This document shows, piece by piece, positions 4,521-12,694 of a stretch of DNA of 57,301 nucleotides (positions within the stretch are counted from its first letter, which is position 1; the number at the start of each line of letters is the position of its first letter). Below the pieces are notes generated by a model that did not search any database, had not been told where the DNA came from, and saw nothing but the letters and a program-made list of their open reading frames with translations. The DNA is from an uncultured Pseudomonadota bacterium. Lineage in GTDB: Bacteria; Myxococcota_A; UBA796; SXON01. The translations under genes were made by a program, and so were the position numbers. The DNA is taken from positions 1 through 57,301 of the forward strand of contig CAIXRH010000038.1 in assembly GCA_903921785.1 (NCBI GenBank). Reading direction: 5' to 3'.

Positions 4521-6425
4521 ATGACCCTCCCTGAGCTCGTCGACCACATCCTGTCTGTGCACCACGCGCGCCTCCGCCGGGAGATTCCGCGCTTCACCGC
4601 ACGCATGGCGGAGCTCGGCTCGCCGAAGGCGATCACCGAACCGTGGCGGCAGATGCTGGAGGTCCTCGAGCCTCACCTGGACGTGGAGGAGCGGGTGCTC
4701 TTCCCGATGATCGTGGCGATCGCGGAGGGTCACAACCCGGCCGGGGACGGGCCCGAGGCCGGCATCCACCGGATGCGCTACGAGCACGACGTGTTCGTCA
4801 CCCTGGAGACGTGCGTGCGCGCCGCGGCGAAGCTCCTGGGGGATCAGGAGAACGACCTCCTCGACCTGCTCGACGATCTGGAGACCCACACCAAGCTGGA
4901 AGAGGACGAGCTGTTCCCCAAGGCCATGGCGGCCTGGGAGAAGCTCAACGCGGAGCTTGGCTCCCACGCGCCGACGGCCCCGCCGGTCGCTGCGCCCCAT
5001 CACGCCGCCGCCCACGCCCCGCCGCACTCGGCACCGGGGCCGATCGCCACCGCCTGGGAGGACCCGCCCGGGCTCCGTGTGATCCGCCACACCCGTGGGC
5101 GCTGCCCCACATGCGTCACCGATGTGCCCGGTCGTGTCGTCCGCGACGCCCATGAAGCGCGCCTGGAGAAGCTCTGTCCCACCCACGGTTACAGCGCCCA
5201 GGTGCTCTCCCGCGCTCCGGATGACTGGGAGAAGCTCGACCGCATCTACTTCCGGATGAACGCGGAGAGCTACCCCCAGCGCGACTACATCGTGCGGATG
5301 ACGGAGAAGTGCAACCTCGACTGCCCGATCTGCCTGGCCAAGGCCAACACCGAGTCGACGCCGGACCTCGGCCTTGACCGCCTGAAGGAGCTGCTGGCCG
5401 GGCGCCGCGGCATCAAGATCGACCTGATGGCGGCGGAGCCGACGCTCCGCGAGGACATCGAGGAGTGGGTCCGGACCGTGAAGGCCGCCGGCTGCATCGC
5501 CGCGCTCCACACCAACGGCCTGAAGCTCGCGGATCGGAAGTTTGCCGAGCGGATGAAGGCCGCGGGAGTCGACGAGGTCTTCCTCCAGTTCGACGGCCAG
5601 GACGACGACGCCAACGTGGTGCTCCGCGGGCGCAAGCTCAACAAGGCCCGGATGGCCACGCTCAAGAACCTCCGGGAGCTCGGCATCGCCACCAGCCTCA
5701 TCGTCGTCATCGCGAAGGGGGTGAACGAGGCCGAGGTGAGTCGCACCGTGGAGTTCGCGATGCAGCCGGAGAACCGGTTCATTCGCGAAGTCTTCTTCCT
5801 CGGGCTGCGGATGCTCGGCAGCGCGCGCAAGGCGGTCAACAAGGACGGCTCGTCGCTCGGCGACGCGATGCTGATGCCCGACGAGATCGTGGACCTTCTC
5901 AGCGCGCAGCGCCCGGAGATCACCCGCGAGAACGTCCGGGAGTTCAACGAGCTGTACTTCGCGATGTTGTCCGCCTTCCACGTGAAGAAGTGCCTGTACG
6001 TGCAGCACTACATGATGGTCCGCGCCGACGCGGGCGGTGGCAAGCCGATCAGCGAGTACCTCGACCTCGCGGGGCTCGCGCGCTCGGCGGAGCGCTACGC
6101 CGATATGGTCGACGCCCACCCGGCCGTCGCCCGCGCGGGGCTCCTCGCGTCGATCGCCCGTCATGGGTTGACGCGGAAGACGTTGCCCCTGGTGGCGGAC
6201 TTCGCCCGCCTGGAGCGGCTGTTCGCGTCGGGCATGAACCTCACCGAGGTGCCCGACCGCTTCCTCCTCCTCGGCTTCATCACCGCCTGCGACCCCCACA
6301 ACTTCGACGCCGCGGTGGCGGTGAACTGCGGGAAGGGCGAGCTGAGCTCGGATGGTGGGTTCATCGAGAGCGGCGCGGTGGCGAATGTGTGCCGGGAGGC
6401 GCGGTTCGACGCGGGGGGGACGTAG
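4521..6425 (+). CDS. hemerythrin domain fused to Tes-like radical SAM enzyme
   Basis: 634 residues in two parts. Residues 1-150 form a four-helix hemerythrin-like domain with the expected His/Glu pattern (VDHILSVHHARL, EPHLDVEERVLFP, GIHRMRYEHD, ETHTKLEEDELFP), which would bind a di-iron centre sensing or carrying O2 or NO. A Pro/Ala/His-rich linker (about 150-185) follows. The rest resembles the tetraether-lipid-synthase (Tes, Mj0619) group of radical SAM proteins: an N-terminal cysteine module (C195, C198, C219, H222), the CX3CX2C cluster motif (C264, C268, C271 in KCNLDCPIC), then LQFDGQDDD and LRGRKLNKARM. Tes joins lipid tails through C-C bonds; whether this homologue does so is unknown. 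Monocistronic; it converges on the next gene with only 3 bp between stops. An apparently unusual fusion. Confidence 0.85.
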   Translation: MTLPELVDHILSVHHARLRREIPRFTARMAELGSPKAITEPWRQMLEVLEPHLDVEERVLFPMIVAIAEGHNPAGDGPEAGIHRMRYEHDVFVTLETCVRAAAKLLGDQENDLLDLLDDLETHTKLEEDELFPKAMAAWEKLNAELGSHAPTAPPVAAPHHAAAHAPPHSAPGPIATAWEDPPGLRVIRHTRGRCPTCVTDVPGRVVRDAHEARLEKLCPTHGYSAQVLSRAPDDWEKLDRIYFRMNAESYPQRDYIVRMTEKCNLDCPICLAKANTESTPDLGLDRLKELLAGRRGIKIDLMAAEPTLREDIEEWVRTVKAAGCIAALHTNGLKLADRKFAERMKAAGVDEVFLQFDGQDDDANVVLRGRKLNKARMATLKNLRELGIATSLIVVIAKGVNEAEVSRTVEFAMQPENRFIREVFFLGLRMLGSARKAVNKDGSSLGDAMLMPDEIVDLLSAQRPEITRENVREFNELYFAMLSAFHVKKCLYVQHYMMVRADAGGGKPISEYLDLAGLARSAERYADMVDAHPAVARAGLLASIARHGLTRKTLPLVADFARLERLFASGMNLTEVPDRFLLLGFITACDPHNFDAAVAVNCGKGELSSDGGFIESGAVANVCREARFDAGGT

Positions 6426-6428
6426 GGG

Positions 6429-8567
6429 TCAGGGGGCGTTGTAGATCATCCACCCCTGCCCGCGCGCCGTCGTGTCGTCCCAGGCGCTCAATAGTAGGTC
6501 CTGGGCGCCGTCGCCGTTGAAGTCGAGGGCGTTGGCGATGCCAACCCCTTCAAGTTCCGTGTTTCCGCCGTTGAGGTGGAGGGAAGTGTCCGCCAGGTCG
6601 TAGTCGCCGTGGACGCCAGCGCCGCCCGGAAGGAGGTACAGGGCGGGCCCGAGGGTGCCGGTACGGGTCGTGGAGGCGGTCACGTCCGCGTACCCGTCGC
6701 CCGTGAGCTCGCCCGACACCCCCACCGACTCACCTAGCCGCGCTCCCGGTGTGCTTGCGGCCCACTTCACGTCCGCGAGCGCGAGGATGTCCCCGGAAGC
6801 TGACGGTACGGGGTCTCCGAACACCACTTCCACGATTCCCGCGTCGTCCGCGTACTTCGGCGCGCCGAAGACCGCGTCGGGTCGCCCGTCGCCGTTGACG
6901 TCGGCACCGTCACTCACTGCCGCAAACGCCCCGTCCGTGGGCATGCCCTCCCAGATCAGGTCGGCGCCATCGAGGGACCCCGACGGCACGCGGGTCGAGC
7001 CGCCCATGTAGGTGAACAGCCGGGTTCGGGCTGCGCCCTCTCCGGTGGTGACGTTGTCGGCGACCGCCCAATCCCCCACCCCGTCCCCATCAAAATCCCC
7101 GATCGCCGCCACCTCGTGGCCGCCTTGTGCGTCGACGGTGAGGCCGGTGAGGGTGACGACGTCGGGGGCGTCAGTGTCGCGGGTCCCGGTGGTGCGGTCG
7201 CCGTAGTAGAGGAAGGCGGCACCGCGGCCGCCGTCGTAGGTGGGATCACCGATGGCCCAATCGCCGAGACCGTCGTCATCCACGTCGCCGAGGAGGGCGA
7301 CGCTCAGGCCGAACTCGTCGTCGGCGGAGGGACCCGGGAGGGTGAGGGTGGCGTCCGTGTCGACGAGGCCACCAGCAAGTAGGGCGGCGCCCTGGGTGAA
7401 CAGGTACGCGTTGCCGTCGAACAGGCTCACGACGAGGAGATCGGGAGTGCCGTCCCCGTCGATGTCGCTACCGGCAGAGAGAGCGGTGCCGAACGCCGCA
7501 TTGGCCGTCGTGCCGCGGAGGGCGGCGCCGGTGCTGTCGAGTGGCTGCTCGCCGAGCCGGAGCGTGGGGTCCCCGGCCACAACGCGGATTTCTCCGACCA
7601 GGCCGTTCGCACCGGGCCGGGCGATGACCAGCTCATCGTCGCCGTCGCCGTCGAGGTCGCCCGCGGACGCGACGGTGCGCGCGACGTAGAGCTCGCCGGC
7701 ATCGCCGGTGAAGGTGGCGCTCACATCGTCCGGGCCGGCTTCGCCGGTGGGAATGCCACACGGCACGTCGAGGCCGTCGCAGTCGGCGTCGGCGCCGTCC
7801 TCGCACGCGTCCCAGGCCCCGGGATGTACGGTCTGCTCCCCGTCGTCACAGTCGCCGCCACGCTCGGCGTAGCCGGGAGGAGGGGAGCACACGAGGTAGG
7901 TGACGTCGTCGTCGCCGAACCCATCTTCGTCCCGGTCAAGGTACCAGGTGACCGCGGGGGCGTCGTCCACGGCGCCGTTGCAGTCGTCGTCCACGCCATT
8001 GCAGGTCTCGGTGGCGCCCGGGTTCACCGCGGAGTCTGCGTCGTCGCAGTCGCCGTCGGCGAGGCTCGCGCCGCCGGGGTCGGCGCAGCTGGCGATGGTG
8101 GTGCCGTCGCCGAAGCCGTCGGCGTCGCCGTCGGGGTACCAGTCGAGGGTCGCGACCGTCTCGGGGTCGTCGATCGTGCCGTTGCAATCGTCATCCTGGC
8201 CGTTGCATGCCTCGGGGGCGCCGGGGAAGACATCGGCGTCACCGTCGTCGCAGTCCTTGCTGCTCGGCACCAGCTCACGAGTGGGCGTGCAGGTGACGAA
8301 CGGCTCGCCAGCGCCTGCGCCGTCGCCGTCGGCATCTACGTACCAGGTCGCGTCAGTGAGATCGGCAGCTTCGTCCACCTCTCCATCGCAATCGTCGTCC
8401 ACCTTTTTGCACCGCTCGCCGACCTTGGGCGCGATGGCAACGTCGCGATCGTCGCAGTCGCCGTCCACCTCGGACCAGCCGTCTCCATCTCCGTCGGTGA
8501 GCGCCGCCAGCCGTGTCTCGTAGGTGGCGCGGTCGAACAGGCAGCCGGTGACGAGGAGCAGGAGCAT
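6429..8567 (-). CDS. MopE-type / FG-GAP repeat lipoprotein
   Basis: 712-residue surface lipoprotein. The signal sequence is only MLLLLVTGC, with no Lys/Arg, and Cys9 is the likely lipid-modified residue. Residues about 25-270 hold four MopE-type metal-binding repeats (GDCDD then DDDCNG or similar); the first and last are degenerate. From about 290 to the end are FG-GAP integrin-like repeats (DGDGDDELVIARPG, DIDGDGTPDLLVV, DFDGDGVGDWAVAD, DVNGDGRPDAVFGAP, DFNGDGAQDLLLS), expected to fold as a calcium-binding beta-propeller. Likely exposed on the outer surface. A TACGCG hexamer 7 nt before the ATG may be its -10 element. It lies 64 bp downstream of the ABC permease on the same strand. Confidence 0.9.
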   Translation of the reverse strand: MLLLLVTGCLFDRATYETRLAALTDGDGDGWSEVDGDCDDRDVAIAPKVGERCKKVDDDCDGEVDEAADLTDATWYVDADGDGAGAGEPFVTCTPTRELVPSSKDCDDGDADVFPGAPEACNGQDDDCNGTIDDPETVATLDWYPDGDADGFGDGTTIASCADPGGASLADGDCDDADSAVNPGATETCNGVDDDCNGAVDDAPAVTWYLDRDEDGFGDDDVTYLVCSPPPGYAERGGDCDDGEQTVHPGAWDACEDGADADCDGLDVPCGIPTGEAGPDDVSATFTGDAGELYVARTVASAGDLDGDGDDELVIARPGANGLVGEIRVVAGDPTLRLGEQPLDSTGAALRGTTANAAFGTALSAGSDIDGDGTPDLLVVSLFDGNAYLFTQGAALLAGGLVDTDATLTLPGPSADDEFGLSVALLGDVDDDGLGDWAIGDPTYDGGRGAAFLYYGDRTTGTRDTDAPDVVTLTGLTVDAQGGHEVAAIGDFDGDGVGDWAVADNVTTGEGAARTRLFTYMGGSTRVPSGSLDGADLIWEGMPTDGAFAAVSDGADVNGDGRPDAVFGAPKYADDAGIVEVVFGDPVPSASGDILALADVKWAASTPGARLGESVGVSGELTGDGYADVTASTTRTGTLGPALYLLPGGAGVHGDYDLADTSLHLNGGNTELEGVGIANALDFNGDGAQDLLLSAWDDTTARGQGWMIYNAP

Positions 8568-11620: not shown

Positions 11621-12694
11621 ATGCCCGCACCGACCTATTGGGACTACCTGAACCTCCCGAAGCTCCTCGACTGCCAGGGAGGCCTCGATGGCACCCCCTC
11701 GGCGGATGAGCTGCACTTCATCATCGTGCACCAGACGTACGAGCTGTGGTTCAAGCTCATCCTGAGCCAGCTGCGCCTCGCCCGCGATCACCTCGCGGCG
11801 CCGCGTCTGCCGGAGGAGCGGGTCCCCTTCGTGGTGCACCACCTCGGCCGGGTCAACGCGATCCTCCGGTTGATGGTCGATCAATTCGTCGTGATGGAGA
11901 CGCTGCCGCCGCAGGACTTCCTCGACTTCCGGGACAAGCTGTTGCCGTCCAGCGGCTTCCAGAGCTACCAGCTGCGCGAGTTCGAGATCCTCCTCGGGCT
12001 CACCCCGGAGCGCCGCATCAAGTACGCGGGCACCGATCCCATCGAGCACATCCGCAGCCAGGCGCACTCCGAGAGCGGCCGTGCAGTGGCCGCGCGGTTG
12101 AGCGCCACGATGGAGGAGGTGAGCCTCCGGGACGCGCTGCTGAGCTGGCTGGTGCGCGCGCCGATCATGGGCTCGACGCCCGACTCTCCCGGCGACGCCG
12201 AGGTGGTGGACCAGTTCCTCCACGACTACTTCGCCCGGGTCCAGGCCGATCAGCACGCCACCGGCGACAAGCTCGTCCACGTGCTCGACGGCGCGGACGA
12301 GGACAAGATCCGCGCCCGCATCGAAGCCTCGCTCGCCGGCGTACGGAGCTTCCTCCTCCCGGATGGCGTCTCGGCGCGCCGCGCCGTGGCGGCATTGGTG
12401 TTCATCGAGAGCTACCGCCACCTCCCGCTGCTCGCGTTCCCGCGTCTGCTGCTGGACACGGCGGTGGAGCTTGAGGAGCAGGTGCTGTTGTTCCGCCACC
12501 GGCACGCCCGCATGGCGGAGCGGACCATCGGCCGTCGGGTCGGCAGCGGCGGCAGCTCGGGTGTGGAGTACCTCGATCAGACGCTCGCCTACCGGGTCTT
12601 CCCCGAGCTCTGGAACGTCCGCTCGTGCCTCTTGCCCCGGGAAAAGCTGCCGCCGCTGGTCGGCGAGGCCAACTACCGGTTCGCGCAAGACTGA
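11621..12694 (+). CDS. kynA: tryptophan 2,3-dioxygenase
   Basis: 357-residue heme enzyme that opens the indole ring of L-tryptophan to N-formylkynurenine, the first step of the kynurenine pathway. Hallmarks: YWDYLNLPKLLDCQ at the N-terminus, DELHFIIVHQTYELWFK substrate-site helix, FRHRHARM with the probable proximal heme ligand His295, and the GSGGSSG loop that closes over the amino-acid substrate. Longer than some bacterial enzymes (about 280-300 residues) because of extra helices around residues 190-245. No other kynurenine gene is adjacent; a kynurenine-aminotransferase-like gene lies about 39 kb away. Start ATG 11621 follows a -10-like box by 6 nt. Confidence 0.96.
   Translation: MPAPTYWDYLNLPKLLDCQGGLDGTPSADELHFIIVHQTYELWFKLILSQLRLARDHLAAPRLPEERVPFVVHHLGRVNAILRLMVDQFVVMETLPPQDFLDFRDKLLPSSGFQSYQLREFEILLGLTPERRIKYAGTDPIEHIRSQAHSESGRAVAARLSATMEEVSLRDALLSWLVRAPIMGSTPDSPGDAEVVDQFLHDYFARVQADQHATGDKLVHVLDGADEDKIRARIEASLAGVRSFLLPDGVSARRAVAALVFIESYRHLPLLAFPRLLLDTAVELEEQVLLFRHRHARMAERTIGRRVGSGGSSGVEYLDQTLAYRVFPELWNVRSCLLPREKLPPLVGEANYRFAQD

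Follow-up and report, generated by a model that had tools for sequence, protein, structure and literature searches.

YtfE is a di-iron protein that binds NO, reduces nitrite, and repairs Fe-S clusters or donates iron (PMC9268430, PMC9052748, PMC8117158). The full protein ligand set of its di-iron site consists of H84, H129, E133, H160, H204, and E208, and E159 supports the site (PMC9268430). O2-carrying hemerythrins show the ligand pattern H-HxxxE-HxxxH-HxxxxD, and the hemerythrin-domain sensors DcrH, Bhr-DGC, and Bhr-HD-GYP combine a di-iron four-helix domain and a functional domain in a single chain; a radical SAM output domain is not among the known hemerythrin fusions listed (PMC9388753). 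The radical SAM enzyme Tes (GDGT-MAS; MJ0619 of M. jannaschii) possesses a rubredoxin-like site, namely C9X2C12X20C33X2H36 (PMC9433317). Its N-terminal auxiliary cluster has C73, C77, C80, and a histidine as ligands. The gene described here, encoded in a 57,301-nucleotide window (the whole stretch of DNA analyzed), joins relatives of both kinds of protein in one polypeptide.

Architecture of the fusion protein

The complete fusion gene (4521..6425, plus strand, as are all features given below) starts with ATG and encodes 634 residues comprising a hemerythrin (HHE) domain, a rubredoxin-like module, a radical SAM core, and a C-terminal domain. The HHE four-helix domain (4542..4925, residues 8-135) is recognized by Pfam (PF01814 Hemerythrin, 55.3 bits against a gathering cut-off of 25.3) and by its phmmer alignment with YtfE. 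An Ala/Pro/His-rich linker (4962..5036, residues ~148-172), modeled with pLDDT below 50 and under undetectable constraint, leads to the rubredoxin-like CX2CX20CX2H module (5103..5186; C195, C198, C219, and H222), which is identified both by the Tes motif and by Pfam as PF23545 Zn_ribbon_HMPTM, the HMPTM N-terminal zinc ribbon (residues 187-230, 34 bits, cut-off 27). The radical SAM core follows (5295..5759, residues 259-413; PF04055 Radical_SAM, 64 bits, cut-off 29.5; fold match to 7tol) and contains the motif CNLDCPIC (5310..5333; C264, C268, and C271), the CX3CX2C core that the earlier note had described. Three C-terminal cysteines, C491, C590, and C603 (5991..6329), are invariant across all aligned relatives. 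The earlier note's description of hemerythrin and radical SAM in one 634-residue chain is accurate to the coordinate; both Pfam matches exceed their cut-offs, and the arrangement recurs in relatives.

In the AlphaFold2 model (mean pLDDT 88.9, pTM 0.72), the HHE helices span residues 3-32, 36-68, and 78-147, and only residues 149-172 and 440-443 fall below a pLDDT of 50. The open reading frame shows strong codon-position G+C structure. Compared with L021, the closest named relative, the dN/dS ratio is ~0.20 for the radical SAM part and ~0.54 for the HHE domain, with the linker unconstrained, values to be read with an uncertain dS in very G+C-rich DNA; the corresponding identities are 80% and 54%. 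Since the identical in-frame fusion is found in independent MAG assemblies, and given these ratios, the fusion is neither an assembly artefact nor a chance open reading frame.

Residues H15, H52, E56, H89, H123, and E127 of the HHE domain align with the six YtfE ligands in the order listed above, and E88 aligns with YtfE E159. The O2-carrying hemerythrin pattern is not matched, as helix C carries an EH pair without a second histidine at +4 and the last pair reads HxxxE. Judged by this alignment, the predicted di-iron ligands are of the YtfE/RIC type (four His and two bridging Glu), not of the O2-carrying hemerythrin type. The complete His/Glu domain of the earlier note is present, and the loss of its ligands in relatives, which that note had considered, is confined to few: in 14 of the 16 fused proteins all six can be made out, the helix-C histidine is missing from L023, and L025 is ambiguous. 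The rest of the domain is only 39-54% identical.

The HHE fold, all six di-iron ligands, and the E159 equivalent are shared with RIC/YtfE/ScdA proteins (TIGR03652; PDBIDs 5FNN and 7BHA). Unlike these proteins, the fusion has its HHE domain joined to an enzyme, lacks YtfE E125 and a ScdA_N domain (PF04405), and scores 46 bits on TIGR03652 against a cut-off of 204.7. The single-chain design resembles that of DcrH, Bhr-DGC, and Bhr-HD-GYP, whereas the H-HxxxE-H-HxxxE ligands are YtfE-type and a radical SAM enzyme serves as the output domain. No description of a hemerythrin-radical SAM fusion was found in a literature search for which most subscription journals lay beyond reach, and the hemerythrin reviews examined for ‘radical’ make no mention of it. 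The protein is a well-supported, lineage-restricted domain fusion whose halves are both of known kinds; it constitutes no new class of system.

Relation to Tes

The resemblance to Tes proposed in the earlier note is borne out, as the best PDB match by both sequence profile (E=4.5e-42) and fold (E=1e-28) is GDGT-MAS/Tes (7TOL/7TOM). The spacing C195-C198-C219-H222 is identical to that of the M. jannaschii rubredoxin-like site, and radical SAM core and C-terminal Cys region are likewise common to both. Of the Tes-like N-terminal Cys module suggested earlier, this rubredoxin-like part stands, but the second part does not: a motif check finds the auxiliary CX3CX2C plus His motif missing from the window protein and its subfamily. 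When the 80 related loci found in the genome collection (L021-L100) are compared with the window, C-x3-CG-x-C occurs in 54/54 of the more distant Tes-superfamily loci (L047-L100) and in none of the near loci (L021-L046) or the window. On the tree, a branch with SH-aLRT 100 separates the proteins that lack the motif from the rest; the deepest of them (Omnitrophota and Undinarchaeota) sit on long branches and are placed with less certainty. Lack of the auxiliary-cluster motif marks a separate clade.

The fusion protein reaches 106 bits on the curated Tes model (NF045702), whose cut-off of 450 bits is attained by 0 of 19 relatives. Its top-scoring NCBIfam model is instead that of the TrsS radical SAM (seleno)protein (NF045646), yet this match of 148 bits lies far under the 490-bit cut-off and is mostly to the core (residues 257-439). 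Among the C-terminal cysteines, C603 alone aligns with a Tes ligand cysteine (C455). The labile Met439 of the Tes C-terminal cluster is not conserved by alignment, which also places a C-terminal cysteine of the fusion one helical turn from Tes C438/M439; C491, C590, and C603 are candidate ligands of a C-terminal auxiliary [4Fe-4S] cluster. The fusion further differs from Tes in its extra HHE domain and its gene neighborhood. An assignment as Tes itself was rejected because of the missed cut-off, the missing auxiliary motif, the separate clade, and a separate gene with the full motif set in the same genome. By these profile and motif comparisons the fusion enzyme belongs to a Tes-related sister subfamily without the N-terminal auxiliary cluster. 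The earlier note had allowed that another radical SAM family might prove closest; the closest homologues are those of this sister subfamily, which is no unrelated family and is not Tes either.

The separate gene just mentioned (G000:C75:11477-12424; L119, L121) encodes a radical SAM protein in which every Tes motif is present (rubredoxin-like, GCPYDCGLC, and the radical SAM core) and which scores 230 bits on the Tes model; high-scoring homologues exist in G005, G011, and G025. On account of this motif set and score, it is the better candidate for Tes-type lipids, if the organism makes any. Farther afield, an Omnitrophota MAG (L045:534-13953) carries seven B12-binding radical SAM paralogues in a row, with a Tes-like gene lacking the auxiliary motif embedded among them and with lipid/hopanoid-type B12 radical SAM enzymes as their nearest models; L044 is similar. 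In another (L043:143-3053), genes for a radical SAM protein, a Tes-like protein of the same motif-less kind, and a U32-family protein overlap head to tail, the first two being the same pair as in the Myxococcota locus L030.

Distribution and gene neighborhoods

Searches covering up to 400 genomes recovered orthologues in 21 of 63 genomes of one uncultured Myxococcota order and in two further genomes of the class. In the domain search and count that the earlier note had called for, the HHE domain is fused in 16 of the 20 orthologues with a readable 5′ end (L021-L041 plus the window, excluding L033 and L034, which a contig end cuts) and absent from L037, L039, L040, and L041. It is also absent from L042-L046, outside the orthologue group. 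Parsimony on the tree needs three changes, which suggests, on one reading, a single gain and about two losses. Four members (L025, L031, L032, and L035) carry tandem HHE domains ahead of the radical SAM part. The record of L036 (CALQBK020000046.1) is titled Bifidobacterium breve; both the gene and its relationships place it in the Myxococcota order, and it is probably a mislabeled MAG.

Genes in the flanks were called with a simple GC-position script, which small or atypical genes may escape. Within the 57 kb of the window there are no NO genes near the fusion, a result that counts against an NO-related role. The neighbors are an HDOD protein, a MopE/FG-GAP protein, an ABC-2 permease, a FadL-like protein, and a tryptophan 2,3-dioxygenase, and no conserved neighbor is tied to NO or lipids. 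The second of these (6429-8567) appears secreted, bears MopE-type metal-binding motifs and FG-GAP repeats, and is convergent with the fusion gene; the dioxygenase homologue (11621-12694), 5 kb downstream, shares the strand of the fusion. Also counting against an NO-related role, NnrS and norCBQD of the same genome reside on contigs other than that of the fusion, no FNR/Dnr-type operator occurs upstream of the window gene or is enriched in orthologues, and the orthologues of G004, G007, G011, G022, and G031 have no recognizable NO neighbor.

In four other genera, however, the gene adjoins nitric-oxide genes (NorCBQD, NnrS, RIC, and stand-alone HHE). In G034 (L030/L112), a RIC gene scoring above its curated cut-off, a stand-alone HHE gene, and a second radical SAM gene that overlaps the fusion by 4 bp precede it, and genes for a DUF59 Fe-S assembly protein, DUF1858/DUF2249, NorC, NorB, NorQ, and NorD follow; this NorB is confirmed by a PDB match (3o0r, E=1e-111), and the G025 locus is a near copy. 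In G019 (L028/L106), the row runs NorB, NorQ, NorD, HHE, NnrS, a COX3-like NorE candidate, a LuxR-type regulator, the fusion, a 240-aa protein, a beta-eliminating lyase, and a molybdopterin oxidoreductase (candidate NapA), the names NorE, NorF, and NapA at this locus resting partly on our own reading. In G040 and G047, a stand-alone HHE gene and the fusion share a 4-bp overlap, with NnrS downstream, and NnrS fragments lie beside the HHE-less orthologue of G049. G019, G040, G047, and G049 each have NnrS within ~3-6 kb of the fusion or of its HHE-less counterpart; by a rough estimate that ignores kinship, the chance of four such linkages among 12 genomes is ~2e-8. The 240-aa protein lies directly downstream of the fusion in G019 and G017 and adjoins NnrS in G002, G005, G007, and G010, which ties the window's own genus indirectly to the NO gene set. 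These neighborhoods in several relatives point to nitrosative stress rather than membrane lipids.

Two candidate assignments were discarded. A metallo-beta-lactamase fold for the 240-aa partner, proposed by eye, finds no Pfam match, and the protein is left unnamed here. The second radical SAM protein encoded directly upstream in G034 and G025 is no fixed partner: its relatives elsewhere (28-47% identical) are unlinked to the fusion and occur in genomes that lack it as well as in carriers.

Among 58 relatives (21 carriers and 37 non-carriers), compared for support only as kinship and genome completeness are ignored, NnrS is present in 12/21 carriers versus 9/37 non-carriers (p=0.02) and c-type NorB in 9/21 versus 7/37 (p=0.07). 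These co-occurrences are modest, and that of the beta-eliminating lyase, which is closest to tyrosine phenol-lyase/tryptophanase, is much stronger (16/21 versus 7/37, p=5e-5) and counts against an NO-related role. In G005 the lyase gene and the fusion overlap by 4 bp, in G020 the two are within 2 kb of each other, and in G019 both belong to a fusion-240-aa-lyase row joined by 4-bp overlaps. Separately, one frame of the window's genome (G000:C266:11675-14314) contains two consecutive tyrosine phenol-lyase/tryptophanase-like halves, apparently a fused double lyase, and similar frames occur in G022, G031, G033, G037, G047, and G050; each is a single open frame of ~880-990 aa.

Possible roles of the di-iron domain

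The explanation we tentatively favor, at a little short of an even chance, is that the di-iron domain serves the radical SAM enzyme in the same chain against NO/O2 damage, by sensing, scavenging, or repair. It is compatible with the earlier note's proposal that the hemerythrin domain could gate or protect the enzyme. A Tes-related radical SAM subfamily would have acquired an N-terminal RIC/YtfE-type domain in one Myxococcota order, and the enzyme may work in low-oxygen or denitrifying metabolism, where its Fe-S clusters would meet NO and returning O2. We infer that the domain holds metal, reacts with these gases, and acts in cis, whether by sensing NO/O2, by scavenging them reductively, or by supplying iron to clusters that have been damaged; electrons for scavenging could come from the adjoining rubredoxin-like iron, by analogy with rubrerythrin, in which a di-iron bundle likewise adjoins such a site. 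The enzyme would as a result stay active or be switched off. The YtfE literature makes sensing, scavenging, and iron donation each plausible (PMC9268430, PMC9052748, PMC8117158) and singles out none. Counting against the favored explanation, constraint on the HHE domain is weaker than on the radical SAM part, about two losses of the domain have occurred, and L023 has lost a ligand.

That same looseness of constraint, with at least two losses, tandem duplications, and the lower HHE identity and higher dN/dS than in the radical SAM part, is what a weakly constrained appendage lacking a metal-dependent function, for example a dimerization or interaction domain, would leave behind. Retention of all six ligands in 14 of 16 fused copies, in a domain otherwise so divergent, makes this distinctly improbable. 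Could the HHE domain instead be catalytic itself, reducing NO/nitrite in the manner of YtfE or peroxide/O2 in that of rubrerythrin with electrons from the rubredoxin-like iron, in a fusion that mainly detoxifies? The rubrerythrin-like anatomy, the NO-gene neighborhoods, and the conversion of nitrite into NO by YtfE (PMC9052748) are consistent with such a role. The rubredoxin-like module, however, is present across the whole superfamily and hence predates the HHE gain, HHE-less orthologues persist, and the radical SAM domain is the more conserved, unlike what a pure detoxifier would show; we regard this role as quite unlikely.

On the substrate side, the serious rival is a function in which the fusion partners the tyrosine phenol-lyase/tryptophanase-like enzyme in aromatic amino-acid or metabolite chemistry, with the HHE domain as a low-oxygen redox switch, since the lyase gene overlaps or adjoins the fusion in G005, G019, and G020 and shows the strongest phyletic association. 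Against it, five carrier genomes, G025 and G034 among them, lack the lyase, the gene is unlinked elsewhere (for example on C254 of the window's genome), and both genes may merely share an anaerobic regulon, so that this function appears unlikely, if less so than a purely detoxifying one. Very improbable is the earlier note's proposal of a bacterial Tes that makes membrane-spanning or otherwise C-C-linked lipids and is shielded from O2 by the HHE domain. The solved-structure matches, the rubredoxin-like spacing, the retained C-terminal Cys region, and the distant Omnitrophota homologues without the auxiliary motif, whose neighboring B12-radical SAM genes have lipid-biosynthesis models among their nearest, speak for it. 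The 106 bits against 450, the missing auxiliary motif, the separate clade, the Tes-motif gene on C75, and the NO neighborhoods speak against it, and no recurring lipid genes adjoin the fusion in relatives.

Radical SAM enzymes lose their activity to O2 and NO, and to our knowledge the means by which cells keep them working under denitrifying conditions or fluctuating oxygen are poorly known. Beyond the favored explanation of a di-iron domain serving its own enzyme, a bolder version is possible though doubtful, namely that a built-in RIC/rubrerythrin-like module clears NO/O2 or repairs clusters for an undescribed Tes-superfamily subfamily with its own chemistry; if true, oxygen- and NO-sensitive radical chemistry could run during denitrification. 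The covalent YtfE-type domain would offer a case in which protection, repair, or gas gating in cis can be tested directly.
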